A stretch of 64,000 bases of DNA from Motilibacter rhizosphaerae (lineage in GTDB: Bacteria; Actinomycetota; Actinomycetes; Motilibacterales; Motilibacteraceae): positions 868,001-932,000 of the forward strand of contig NZ_SGXD01000002.1 in assembly GCF_004216915.1 (NCBI RefSeq), in the 5' to 3' direction. The notes beneath the pieces were generated by a model. It ran no database searches and had not been told where the DNA came from. It saw nothing but the letters and a program-made list of their open reading frames with translations. The position numbers were made by a program, and so were the translations under genes. This document shows, piece by piece, positions 22,045 to 26,830 of the stretch (its first letter is position 1; each line of letters starts with the position of its first letter).

Positions 22045-23295
22045 TCAGCCCCGCCGCCCCCGGAAGACCCAGACCCGGAGCAGGACGAACCGCAGGACCG
22101 TCGCAGCGAGGTTCGCGAGCACGAGCACGGCGACCTCGACCCCCCGGCTCGTCGTGCCCGCAGCGGCGAGGGCGGCGAGCGAGCCGCTGGTGAGCGCGAG
22201 CCCGAGGGCGAAGACCACCAGCCCCTGCGCCTGCTGGCGCAGCGCGCCCTCGCTGCTGACGACGCCGAAGGTGAGCCGGCGGTTCGCGGCGGTGTTCGCC
22301 ACCGCCGTCACGAGCAGCGCGAGCAGGTTGGCGGCCTGGGCGCCGAGTCTGCCGCGCAGCCCGGCGTACAGCAGCACGTAGGCCAGCGTGCTCAGCACGC
22401 CGATCCCGCCGAAGCGGATCAGCTGCGCCGCCATGCCGCGGGGGACGCCGGGGACGCTGGAGGGGCCCGCGTCGAGCGGCCCCCGCCCGAGCTCGGAGCG
22501 CAGCCGTGCCAGCGGCAGCGACCCAGTCGCGAGCGCCCGCGACAGCCGCGCCACTCCCTTGAGGTCGGCGACGGCGGTGGCGACGATGTCGACCCGGCTG
22601 TCGGGGTCGTCGACCCAGTCGACCGGCACCTCGTGGATCCGCAGGCCCGCCCGCTGGGCGAGCACGAGCAGCTCGGTGTCGAAGAACCAGCCCGGGTCCT
22701 CGACGAGCGGCAGCAGGCGCTGTGCGACGTCGCGGCGCACGGCCTTGAACCCGCACTGGGCGTCACTGAAGCGCACGGCGAGCGTGCGGCGCAGGATCGT
22801 GTTGTAGCAGCGCGAGACCACCTCCCGCTTCGCTCCCCGCACCACCCGCGACGAGCGCGACAGCCGCGTGCCGATCGCCACGTCGCTGTGGCCGCTGACG
22901 AGCGGGGCGACGAGCGGGAGCAGGGCCCGCAGGTCGGTCGAGAGGTCGACGTCCATGTAGGCCAGGACCTGGGCCTCGGACTCCGACCAGACGGCCTTGA
23001 GCGCCCGCCCCCGGCCCTTCTCCTCCAGCCGCTGCACCCGGACCTCGGGGTACGCCGCGGCGAGCGCCGCCGCCACGAGCGGCGTCCCGTCCGTGCTGGC
23101 GTTGTCCGCGACCGTGATGCGGAAGCTGAACGGCAGCTCGGCGCGGAGGTACGCGTGGAGCCGCTCGATGCACGGCCCCAGGTCGCGCTCCTCGTCGAAG
23201 ACGGGGATGACGACGTCGAGGACGAGGAGGGACTGCCGCGGCGCGGGGGGCGCGTCGCGCAGCGAGGTGGCGGGGAGCTCGAGGGCGGTGTCCAT
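22045..23295 (-). CDS. GT2 glycosyltransferase fused to a GtrA-like membrane domain
   Basis: A 416-residue two-domain protein. Residues 25-250 form a dolichyl-phosphate-glucose-type GT2 domain (VVIPVFDEERDLG; VADNASTDG; DVD at 115-117; GFKAVRRD) that should load a sugar onto a polyprenyl phosphate. Residues about 285-416 are a GtrA-like domain with four membrane segments, which in other systems flips the lipid-linked sugar. Putting both activities in one chain suggests coupled synthesis and flipping. The 65-base upstream gap carries an array of CTGTGA-like repeats at an 11-bp period. Confidence 0.88.
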   Translation of the reverse strand: MDTALELPATSLRDAPPAPRQSLLVLDVVIPVFDEERDLGPCIERLHAYLRAELPFSFRITVADNASTDGTPLVAAALAAAYPEVRVQRLEEKGRGRALKAVWSESEAQVLAYMDVDLSTDLRALLPLVAPLVSGHSDVAIGTRLSRSSRVVRGAKREVVSRCYNTILRRTLAVRFSDAQCGFKAVRRDVAQRLLPLVEDPGWFFDTELLVLAQRAGLRIHEVPVDWVDDPDSRVDIVATAVADLKGVARLSRALATGSLPLARLRSELGRGPLDAGPSSVPGVPRGMAAQLIRFGGIGVLSTLAYVLLYAGLRGRLGAQAANLLALLVTAVANTAANRRLTFGVVSSEGALRQQAQGLVVFALGLALTSGSLAALAAAGTTSRGVEVAVLVLANLAATVLRFVLLRVWVFRGRRG

Positions 23296-23317: not shown

Positions 23318-23356
23318 CTGTCGCACCCGTGTGCCGGCGCTGTGCCGTCCCTGTGA
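23318..23356 (-). promoter_or_regulatory. PhoP-box-like repeat array upstream of GT2-GtrA
   Basis: On the plus strand CTGTCG (23318), GTGTGC (23329), CTGTGC (23340) and CTGTGA (23351) recur every 11 bp. On the coding strand this reads TCACAG-N5-GCACAG, close to the mycobacterial PhoP box TCACAG-N5-TCACAG. The last pair starts 45 bases upstream of the start codon, the same as at the response regulator gene. Confidence 0.55.
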
Positions 23357-23359
23357 GCG

Positions 23360-24883
23360 TCAGGAGGCGGTGCGCTGGGGCTGCTCGGAGGCCCGGCGGG
23401 CCGGCTCGAGCAGCGCGTCGACCGGGCGGTCCGCCGACGGCGTCAGCGGCAGCCGCACGGTGAAGCGCGTACGTCCGGGCACCGAGCCCACCCCGACCGC
23501 TCCCCCGTGCGCGGTGACGATCGCGGCGACGATGGCGAGCCCGAGCCCCGTGCTGCCGGCGCCCCGCGAGCGGGAGGAGTCCCCGCGGGCGAAGCGCTCG
23601 AAGACGTCGGGCAGCAGGTCGGGCGGGATGCCCGGCCCGTCGTCGCTGACGGTGACGACGCACGTCCCGTCCTCCCGGCGCAGCGCCACCTCCACCGCCG
23701 TGCCGGGAGGCGTGTGCGTCCGGGCGTTGCTCAGCAGGTTGGCGACCACCTGGTGCAGCCGACCCGCGTCGCCGACGACCTCGACCGGCTCGTCGGGCAG
23801 GTCGAGCTCCCAGCGGTGGTCCTGCGAGACCGCGTGCGCGTCGCTGACCGCGTCCACGACCACCGAGGTGAGGTCCACGGGCTCGGCCGCCAGCGGGCGC
23901 CCCGAGTCGAGGCGCGCCAGCAGCAGGAGGTCCTCGACGAGCGAGGTCATCCGGGCCGCCTCCGACTCCACCCGCGTCATCGCGTACGCCGTGTCCTCCG
24001 GCAGCGTCGCCCGGTGCCGGCGGGTCAGCTCGGCGTAGCCCCGGATCGCGGCGAGCGGCGTGCGCAGCTCGTGGCTGGCGTCGGCGACGAACTGCCGCAC
24101 CCGCATCTCGCTGGCGTGCCGGGCGTTGAGCGCGCTGTCCATCGAGACCAGCAGGCGGTTCAGCGCGGAGCCCACCTGCCCGGCCTCCGTGCGCGGGTCG
24201 GCGTCGCGCGCCGGGACGAGCTCGCCCAGCGCCACCTCGCCGCGCTCGAGGGGCATCTCGCTGACGCGCGCGGCCACGCCGGCGACGCGCTGCAGCGGGG
24301 CGAGGGCGCGGCGCAGCAGGGCGGCGCCCCCGAGGACGACGAGCAGCACGGTGCCGAGCGAGACCAGCAGGATGTCCAGGGCGACCTGGTGCACCTGGCG
24401 GGTCACCTCGGCCAGCGGGTAGCCGATCACGCGGACGACGCCCGTCGAGGGGGTGCCGAACGCGACCAGCCGGTAGTCACCGAGGCCGGGCACCGAGCGG
24501 GTGACCGGCCGGCGCTCGTCGGTCGCGGGGACGCTGAGGAAGACCGAGGTGCGCGTCAGCGCTGTCCCCGAGGAGCCGAACGACGACCCTGCCGGGAACA
24601 CCCGCGCGTCCTCGACGGTGCCGTCGGAGATGCAGGCGAACACGGAGTTCGGGCGCGACGGGACCCGGACCGTGCCGCACCCCGGGTCGGCGCCCGGCGG
24701 TGGCACCTCGTGGCGCTGCCCTCCGCCGCCGGGCTGGGCGGTGAGCTGGCGGTCGAGGTTGCCGCGCAGCGAGTGGTCGATGGCGACCAGCGCGAGGCTG
24801 CCGACGAGCAGGCACGCGAGCGACGTGACGACCGCCAGCAGGAGCAGCAGGCGGGTGCGCAGCGAGCGCCCGGGCAGCCTCAC
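23360..24883 (-). CDS. Sensor histidine kinase (PhoR-like)
   Basis: A 507-residue membrane sensor. There is a first transmembrane helix (about 12-35), an extracytoplasmic loop with two cysteines and a proline-rich stretch (40-165), a second helix (about 168-190), then HAMP, HisKA and HATPase_c domains. The phosphorylated residue is H271 in DASHELRTPLAAI; the N box, DDGPGIPPD (G1) and GSTGLGLAIV (G2) are all seen. It lies 8 bases after the response regulator, so the two are one operon and form the cognate pair. The signal is unknown. Confidence 0.9.
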   Translation of the reverse strand: MRLPGRSLRTRLLLLLAVVTSLACLLVGSLALVAIDHSLRGNLDRQLTAQPGGGGQRHEVPPPGADPGCGTVRVPSRPNSVFACISDGTVEDARVFPAGSSFGSSGTALTRTSVFLSVPATDERRPVTRSVPGLGDYRLVAFGTPSTGVVRVIGYPLAEVTRQVHQVALDILLVSLGTVLLVVLGGAALLRRALAPLQRVAGVAARVSEMPLERGEVALGELVPARDADPRTEAGQVGSALNRLLVSMDSALNARHASEMRVRQFVADASHELRTPLAAIRGYAELTRRHRATLPEDTAYAMTRVESEAARMTSLVEDLLLLARLDSGRPLAAEPVDLTSVVVDAVSDAHAVSQDHRWELDLPDEPVEVVGDAGRLHQVVANLLSNARTHTPPGTAVEVALRREDGTCVVTVSDDGPGIPPDLLPDVFERFARGDSSRSRGAGSTGLGLAIVAAIVTAHGGAVGVGSVPGRTRFTVRLPLTPSADRPVDALLEPARRASEQPQRTAS

Positions 24884-24891
24884 GAGCAGCC

Positions 24892-25665
24892 TCAGGCGCC
24901 GGCGTCGACGGCGGGCTTGAGCACGTACCCCGCGCCGCGCACGGTGTGGATCATGGGCTCGCGGCCAGCGTCGATCTTCTTGCGCAGGTAGGAGATGTAG
25001 AGCTCAACCACGTTGGCCTGGCCACCGAAGTCGTAGTTCCAGACGCGGTCGAGGATCTGGGCCTTGCTCAGCACCCGGCGGGGGTTGCGCATGAGGTAGC
25101 GCAGCAGCTCGAACTCCGTCGCGGTCAGCGCCACGGAGTCGCCGCCGCGCCGCACCTCGCGGCTGTCCTCGTCCATGGTGAGGTCGCCGACCACCAGCAG
25201 CGGGCTCTCGGCCGCCACGCTCACCCCCGAGCGGCGCATGAGGCCGCGCAGCCGGGCGACGACCTCCTCGATGCTGAACGGCTTGGTGACGTAGTCGTCC
25301 CCGCCCGCGGTCAGCCCGGCGACCCGGTCCTCGACGGCGTCCTTGGCGGTGAGGAAGAGCACCGGCAGGCGCGGCGCCTCGGCGCGCAGCCGGCGCAGCA
25401 CCTCGAGCCCGTCGATGTCGGGCAGCATCCAGTCGAGCACGACCGCGTCGGGCTGCTCGGCGCGGGCCACGCGCACCGCCGTCAGCCCGTCCGGCGCCGA
25501 GCGCACGTCCCAGCCCTCGTAGCGCAAGGCCATGGAGAGCAGCTCGGACAGGGTCGGCTCGTCGTCGACGACGAGGACGCGCACCGGGGAGCCGTCCGGC
25601 CGGCGGAGGTCCTCGGTGGCGGAGGGGTCGTTGGCACCGCTGCGCAGCCCGGTCGCGATCGTCAT
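24892..25665 (-). CDS. OmpR-family response regulator (PhoP-like)
   Basis: A 257-residue regulator. The receiver holds the acidic pocket VVDDE, phospho-acceptor D78 in VVLDWMLPD, LFLTAKD and DDYVTKPF; the winged-helix domain ends with ILDRVWNYDFGG and YISYLRKKID, which closely resemble mycobacterial PhoP. Three 11-bp-spaced CTGTGA-like repeats just upstream are the type of box PhoP binds, implying autoregulation. In mycobacteria PhoP governs envelope lipids and secretion; here the neighbours are envelope-sugar genes, so envelope control is inferred. Confidence 0.9.
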   Translation of the reverse strand: MTIATGLRSGANDPSATEDLRRPDGSPVRVLVVDDEPTLSELLSMALRYEGWDVRSAPDGLTAVRVARAEQPDAVVLDWMLPDIDGLEVLRRLRAEAPRLPVLFLTAKDAVEDRVAGLTAGGDDYVTKPFSIEEVVARLRGLMRRSGVSVAAESPLLVVGDLTMDEDSREVRRGGDSVALTATEFELLRYLMRNPRRVLSKAQILDRVWNYDFGGQANVVELYISYLRKKIDAGREPMIHTVRGAGYVLKPAVDAGA

Positions 25666-25698: not shown

Positions 25699-25726
25699 CT
25701 GTCAGCCGGCTGTGAGGAGCCTGTGA
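25699..25726 (-). promoter_or_regulatory. PhoP-box-like repeat array upstream of the response regulator
   Basis: On the plus strand CTGTCA (25699), CTGTGA (25710) and CTGTGA (25721), exactly 11 bp apart. On the coding strand this reads TCACAG-N5-TCACAG-N5-TGACAG. The proximal edge of the best pair is 45 bases from the start codon. Confidence 0.6.
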
Positions 25727-25753: not shown

Positions 25754-26830
25754 TCAGCCCGCGTCGCTGCTGAAGCGCACCGAGCCCTCGGCCAGCTCGG
25801 CGCCGGCCCAGACGCGCACGCCGGTGAGCAGCTCGTTGCGGGCGCCGATGCGCGCCGCCTCGCCGACGACGACGCCCTCGAGCACGGCCCCGGCGCCGAT
25901 GGAGGCACCTGCCCCGACGACCGAGTCGCGGACGACGGCGCCCTCCTCGACGACCGCGCCGTCGAGCAGGACGCTGCCCTCGACGACGGCCCCGCGGCCG
26001 ACCACCGCGCCGGCGCCCACGGTCGTGCCGCCGCTCACCTTGGCGTCGATCGCCACCTCGCCGCCGGGGAGCACGAGCTTCTCCCCGGTCGGCCCGGGCA
26101 CGGCCGTCGAGGCGATGCGGCCCGTCACGAGGTCGCGCGAGCCCTGGACGAACGCCGCGGGCGTGCCCAGGTCGAGCCAGTACGCGCTGTCGACGTGCCC
26201 GAGCACGAGCGCGCCGCTCGAGAGCAGCCCGGGGAACGTCTCCCGCTCCACCGAGACGGGGCGGCCCTCCGGGATCCCGTCGATGACGGAGCGCTTGAAC
26301 ACGTAGCAGCCGGCGTTGATCCGGTTGGTGGGCGGGTCGGGCGTCTTCTCGAGGAACGCCTCGACCCGGCCGCTCTCGTCGGTCACCACGCAGCCGAAGG
26401 CGCGGGGGTCGTCCACCTCGACCAGGTGGAGGGTGACGTCGGCGCCGCGCTCCTGGTGGGCGGCGACCTGGGCGGCGATGTCGTGCCCGGAGAGCACGTC
26501 GCCGTTGAAGATGACGACCGGCTCGTCAGGGGCGCTGCGCAGCTTGTCGGCGACGTTGCGGATGCCACCGCCGGTGCCGAGCGGCTCGGTCTCCGTGACG
26601 TAGTCGATCTCCAGGCCGAGCTCGGCGCCGTCGCCGAAGTGCGCGGAGAACGTCTCCGCGCGGTACGACGTCGCGAGCACGACGTGCGTCACCCCGGCGT
26701 CGCGCAGCCGCGCGAGCTGGTGGGTGAGGAACGGCACGCCCGCCGTCGGGATCATGGGCTTGGCGCAGTTCAGCGTCAGGGGGCGCAGCCGCGTCCCCTT
26801 GCCGCCGACGAGCAGGATGGCCTCGGACAT
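25754..26830 (-). CDS. NDP-sugar pyrophosphorylase (mannose-1-P guanylyltransferase-like)
   Basis: A 358-residue nucleotidyltransferase. The signature GGKGTRLRPLT (9-19) and TNRINAGCYVFKR are typical, followed by a left-handed beta-helix of hexapeptide repeats (about 245-330). The closest known relatives by layout are mycobacterial GDP-mannose synthases of the ManC/Rv3264c type. With manB it would make GDP-mannose, though glucose-1-P thymidylyl/uridylyl specificity cannot be excluded. ATG is 6 bases after a TAGGGT -10 box, so a leaderless mRNA is likely. Confidence 0.85.
   Translation of the reverse strand: MSEAILLVGGKGTRLRPLTLNCAKPMIPTAGVPFLTHQLARLRDAGVTHVVLATSYRAETFSAHFGDGAELGLEIDYVTETEPLGTGGGIRNVADKLRSAPDEPVVIFNGDVLSGHDIAAQVAAHQERGADVTLHLVEVDDPRAFGCVVTDESGRVEAFLEKTPDPPTNRINAGCYVFKRSVIDGIPEGRPVSVERETFPGLLSSGALVLGHVDSAYWLDLGTPAAFVQGSRDLVTGRIASTAVPGPTGEKLVLPGGEVAIDAKVSGGTTVGAGAVVGRGAVVEGSVLLDGAVVEEGAVVRDSVVGAGASIGAGAVLEGVVVGEAARIGARNELLTGVRVWAGAELAEGSVRFSSDAG

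Follow-up and report, generated by a model that had tools for sequence, protein, structure and literature searches.

The direct repeats in front of an OmpR/PhoB-family response regulator gene (24892-25665) and of a nearby GT2-GtrA gene are very probably tandem half-sites for this regulator, by which it would activate its own operon as well as the GT2-GtrA gene. Read from sequence, the findings strongly suggest that a PhoP/TrcR-related regulator switches on itself and enzymes loading sugars onto membrane lipids.

Locus and Repeats

The window, i.e., the whole 64-kb stretch of DNA that was analysed, contains the following features of this locus:

22045..23295, minus strand: GT2-GtrA gene, 416 aa (PF00535 and PF04138 over cut-off)
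23318..23356, minus strand: predicted four-unit operator before the GT2-GtrA gene, TCACAG-N5-GCACAG-N5-GCACAC-N5-CGACAG, scoring 14/15
23360..24883, minus strand: sensor histidine kinase, 507 aa, immediately following the regulator gene (PF00512 and PF02518)
24892..25665, minus strand: OmpR/PhoB-family response regulator, 257 aa (PF00072 and PF00486 over cut-off)
25699..25726, minus strand: predicted three-unit operator before the regulator gene, TCACAG-N5-TCACAG-N5-TGACAG, scoring 14/15
25754..26830, minus strand: mannose-1-phosphate guanylyltransferase, upstream of the regulator gene (NF052502, 571 bits, cut-off 440)

The regulator features the receiver and winged-helix Trans_reg_C domains of the OmpR/PhoB family. 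The GT2-GtrA protein is bifunctional, combining a GT2 with a GtrA/DPMS membrane domain, and is a probable polyprenyl-phosphate sugar synthase. In many relatives, GT2 and GT39 genes adjoin.

Read directly on the coding (minus) strand, the regulator promoter is TCACAGgctccTCACAGccggcTGACAG (25726..25699) and the GT2-GtrA promoter TCACAGggacgGCACAGcgccgGCACACgggtgCGACAG (23356..23318). The period claimed in the sequence-only reading was found to be exactly 11 bp between units at both promoters, and the distances of 45 bases upstream of the start codons given there are correct (25710 to 25665; 23340 to 23295). Unit 3, the last one at the regulator gene, is separated by 33 nt from the ATG in both cases (at 25665 and 23295, respectively). 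The regulator box lies inside the 88-bp gap between this gene and the upstream mannose-1-phosphate guanylyltransferase gene; this promoter has a poor fourth unit in the window genome and a weak -10-like element. Both window sites repeat TCACAG(C)-type half-sites two or more times every 11 bp and thus qualify by sequence as direct-repeat operators of the PhoP type. The equation of TCACAG-N5-TCACAG with the mycobacterial PhoP box likewise holds, as Mtb PhoP binds the same half-site with the same period, namely as a tandem dimer on the direct repeat TCACAGC-N4-TCACAGC with a strict 4-bp spacer, while three or four repeats are also bound, and more tightly (PMC4832192). Unlike the window boxes, the autoregulatory repeats of Mtb phoP have been described downstream of the transcription start (PMC3413638).

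Enrichment over Chance Expectation

Sites were scored as three CACAG units at 11-bp spacing (maximum 15), with a window threshold of at least 14/15. Two such sites occur in the 64-kb window, both at the promoters of the regulator and GT2-GtrA genes, vs. a mean of 0.017 in dinucleotide-preserving 64-kb shuffles. The two-unit pattern TCACAG-N5-TCACAG was dropped as sole evidence because it is only mildly enriched, with 7 window matches vs. 2.79 expected at up to two mismatches, and 7 vs. 3 genome-wide. Genome searches, in which the reversed pattern served as control, revealed 23 three-unit sites vs. 4 with up to two mismatches in the whole genome, and 80 vs. 20 (summed) with at most one mismatch in 40 relatives. 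The genome scan proposed along with the sequence-only reading accordingly shows an enrichment which is mild for two units and clear for three. The three-unit pattern is no chance feature.

Conservation at Orthologous Promoters

Regulator orthologs were compared in 80 named loci of Kineococcus, Actinoplanes, Micromonospora, Pseudonocardia, Streptomyces, Nocardioides, Propionibacterium, and others. In 68 of these, the regulator gene is preceded by a box scoring at least 12/15, vs. 0.4% of shuffles, and in relatives of the class the box is present in most genomes. Upstream of the GT2-GtrA orthologs it was found in 31 of 38 named loci (shuffle rate 0.3%), including a same-genus ortholog (L059) located on another contig than its regulator, which has kept the box. 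No box occurs directly upstream of the GT2-GtrA orthologs L062, L064-L067, and L071-L073, nor upstream of any of 76 orthologs of the intervening kinase gene.

The distance to the start codon is nearly fixed. Among regulator boxes scoring at least 11/15, the start codon follows 33 or 34 nt past unit 3 in 54/75, with 17 more of the 75 shifted by one 11-bp register; for the GT2-GtrA boxes, the former distance applies to 29 of 31. Alignment of the GT2 promoters at the start codon places four units at about -62, -51, -40, and -29. A weak nAnnnT-like hexamer follows ~10 bp after the end of the last one and would put the transcription start at the ATG. In different actinobacterial families, the box thus precedes both genes and keeps a nearly constant geometry there, as expected from the earlier proposal of autoregulation and direct GT2-GtrA control. 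Both kinds of control are strongly supported by this conservation and geometry and appear very likely.

Further Sites in the Same Genome

Boxes whose unit 3 is followed by the start codon at the same distance of 33 or 34 nt were also detected upstream of the following genes:

C2:656783: ArnT/PMT-like GT39 gene (PF13231), unlinked
C1:85738: ferric-reductase-like gene (PF01794 and PF00175)
C5:203594: phosphatase-like gene (judged by eye)
C1:1061743: another OmpR-family regulator gene
C1:1157190: serine-protease-like gene (judged by eye)

This recurring precision is unexpected by chance. Some standalone GT39 genes have the box, and GT39 genes directly behind GT2 have none of their own. A class-wide association of the box with ferric-reductase-like genes was rejected, as it is clear in this genome and the same genus only and patchy elsewhere. 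In four relatives (L288, L289, L290, L280), ferric-reductase-like genes adjoin regulators of the same family as the window regulator, which suggests a recurrent pairing of regulator and redox enzyme.

At C1:1061694-1061769 (L039, L100), the regulator RR3 and a divergent serine-protease-like gene feature boxes on both strands of their common intergenic region, an arrangement which recalls MprAB-PepD. Weaker boxes precede a gene for an efflux-adaptor-like protein (C3:467506, L109) and one for a beta-propeller-like protein (C3:161520, L108; judged by eye), comparable to Rv1057, which is reportedly a TrcR target.

Identity of the Regulator

The closest solved structure to the window regulator is that of Mtb PhoP, and its nearest named relative stems from Kineococcus. 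Six of the seven base-contacting residues listed for Mtb PhoP in PMC4832192 (N212, V213, E215, S216, Y217, Y220, and R237) are identical, S216 being replaced by L. With regard to structure and contact residues, the resemblance to PhoP claimed from the sequence therefore stands, but the PhoP label does not. The best match of Mtb PhoP in the genome is a second regulator, RR2, at C1:1154830 (C1:1154827-1155510), with 68% vs. 55% for the window regulator. RR2 has the recognition helix of Mtb PhoP, NVVESYVSYL, whereas that of the window regulator reads NVVELYISYL. Likewise, in nine mycobacterial-type genomes the window regulator matches a separate gene with 68-74%, vs. 54-56% for the PhoP gene there, and a maximum-likelihood tree separates the window-regulator clade from the PhoP clade with a support of 98/99. 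The window regulator as an ortholog of PhoP is thus ruled out by reciprocal best match, which points to RR2 instead, and by the tree.

In a larger tree, a mycobacterial TrcR-like branch nests within the window clade (fork of 28 rows, support 100/97), its rows being named by synteny and protein sizes instead of the Mtb TrcR sequence. The window regulator groups with these TrcR-like proteins, PhoP falling outside, and is accordingly a member of a supported sister clade of PhoP, a clade of TrcR-like regulators. The mycobacterial branch itself looks like TrcR. In one member (G082), a 257-aa regulator and a 509-aa kinase precede KdpA and a P-type ATPase, which matches the arrangement of Mtb TrcR/TrcS. 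As this separate pair adjoins kdpA, an assignment of the direct mycobacterial ortholog of the window regulator as TrcR by ORF length was rejected. The window regulator is not TrcR either, in view of its helix NVVELY and its GT2-GtrA neighbour in place of a kdp locus.

Proposed Mechanism

Phosphorylated regulator molecules would line up head-to-tail on one DNA face, each occupying one 11-bp half-site, in the manner shown for Mtb PhoP. The half-sites would extend right up to the core promoter, since 33 or 34 nt part unit 3 from the start codon and the presumed -10 element follows ~10 bp after the fourth unit. This geometry would imply that the regulator activates a promoter whose -35 element is poor, probably yielding a leaderless mRNA; a half-site row ending near -35 fits activation of the PhoB type. 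The regulator would raise expression of its own operon, resulting in positive feedback, and of the GT2-GtrA gene, and also of the unlinked ArnT/PMT-like GT39 and the ferric-reductase-like genes. The GT2-GtrA protein would generate a lipid-linked sugar whose user would be the GT39 transferase encoded elsewhere in the genome. With these two targets, the circuit would charge polyprenyl phosphate with a sugar that is then passed on to envelope targets.

Units located upstream of a -10 with a poor -35 element are the usual layout of PhoB-type activation, and with such a layout presumed here it is unlikely that the regulator binds the boxes as a repressor. A unit near the core promoter could nevertheless block the polymerase, and TrcR, by synteny a derived member of the clade, is reported to repress Rv1057 (PMC11895460), so that a comparable action in the window would result in negative feedback.

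Assignment of the Box to a Regulator

The same box also occurs, at unchanged spacing, in promoters of the PhoP clade and of HtrA. The box sequence alone therefore cannot name its regulator or distinguish PhoP from sister regulators, which is a warning for motif-based predictions of PhoP regulons. That RR2 reads the box, by itself or jointly with the window regulator, with GT2-GtrA being a PhoP-type target in a network shared by both clades, is improbable, slightly more so than repression. This possibility draws on these shared promoters, on the helix that RR2 has in common with Mtb PhoP, and on three genomes (G017, G019, G024) in which GT2-GtrA is present near a PhoP-clade gene and a close window-clade regulator is lacking. 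RR2 alone, however, leaves unexplained the box at the regulator gene in G003, G022, and G030, where the window-clade regulator was found and no PhoP-clade regulator, as well as the box at GT2-GtrA in G022. From this occurrence, the window clade probably binds the box. Linkage and the co-occurrence of regulator and GT2-GtrA over 40 relatives (Fisher p = 0.001, strict count) also favour the window regulator.

Binding by the window clade is further supported by a joint change of recognition helix and operator in the TrcR-like branch. There, the helix reads SIVDLY (or GIVDLY) where the window regulator has NVVELY, and the promoters show no TCACAG box; two members (L346, L347) feature upstream ACACAT-N5-ACACAT with the same 11-bp period in its place, a candidate TrcR operator. 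An origin of the repeats by chance or base composition, for which only the mild two-unit enrichment would speak, is hardly credible given this joint change, the three-unit statistics, the ortholog conservation, and the spacing.

As regards phoP itself, several mycobacterial promoters of this gene have the canonical box, with the start codon 34 nt further on (L130, L266, L267), and in the genomes closest to Mtb PhoP (97-98%; L260-L262) the box of the phoP promoter has been lost.

Relation to Known Systems

The likeness to Mtb PhoP comprises the half-site core, the 11-bp period, the OmpR/PhoB fold, and most contact residues; the window regulator differs by its clade, the 55% identity, the helix (NVVELY instead of NVVESY), and a separate PhoP ortholog in its genome. 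With TrcR/TrcS it shares the clade and similar protein sizes (257 aa and 507-509 aa), and autoregulation of TrcR is reported according to the title of Haydel 2002 (cited in PMC11895460). The TrcR-like branch differs in its helix, by an identity of 62-65%, in lacking the TCACAG box, and by kdp or carbonic-anhydrase neighbours, whereas the window regulator has GT2-GtrA.

A functional parallel is found in enterobacteria, where PmrAB and PhoPQ control arnC and arnT. In both cases, a two-component system governs, or in the window would govern, a GT2 polyprenyl-phosphate sugar synthase and an ArnT/PMT-like membrane sugar transferase. Nevertheless, the enterobacterial proteins, both regulators and enzymes, are no more than distantly related to their window counterparts, and actinomycetes are not known to have a lipid A target. 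Full-text searches of the open-licence literature yielded nothing on GtrA or GT39 with two-component systems or on a leaderless PhoP regulon.

A reasonable, albeit tentative, proposal is a widespread actinobacterial counterpart of PmrAB/PhoPQ-arn, in which one clade, with a four-half-site operator near-fixed to leaderless starts, controls polyprenyl-phosphate sugar synthesis and transfer, TrcR being a derived copy with jointly changed helix and operator. The observation of two sites extends to a predicted regulon whose conservation reaches from Kineococcus-like bacteria to Streptomyces and mycobacteria; its sharply defined operator can be scanned for in any actinomycete. Envelope sugar transfer would also be a concrete role, open to testing, for a clade including TrcR-like mycobacterial regulators, of which we know hardly any targets.

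Concerning a possible signal, mycobacterial TrcR-like systems adjoin a SulP-carbonic anhydrase fusion in L348 (9115-11340) and L350 (9458-11620), and a window-type system in a mycobacterial genome adjoins a carbonic anhydrase (L334, 9410-9940). Since trcR is moreover induced ~13-fold by CO2 (PMC11895460), the clade of the window regulator and TrcR may sense CO2 or bicarbonate.
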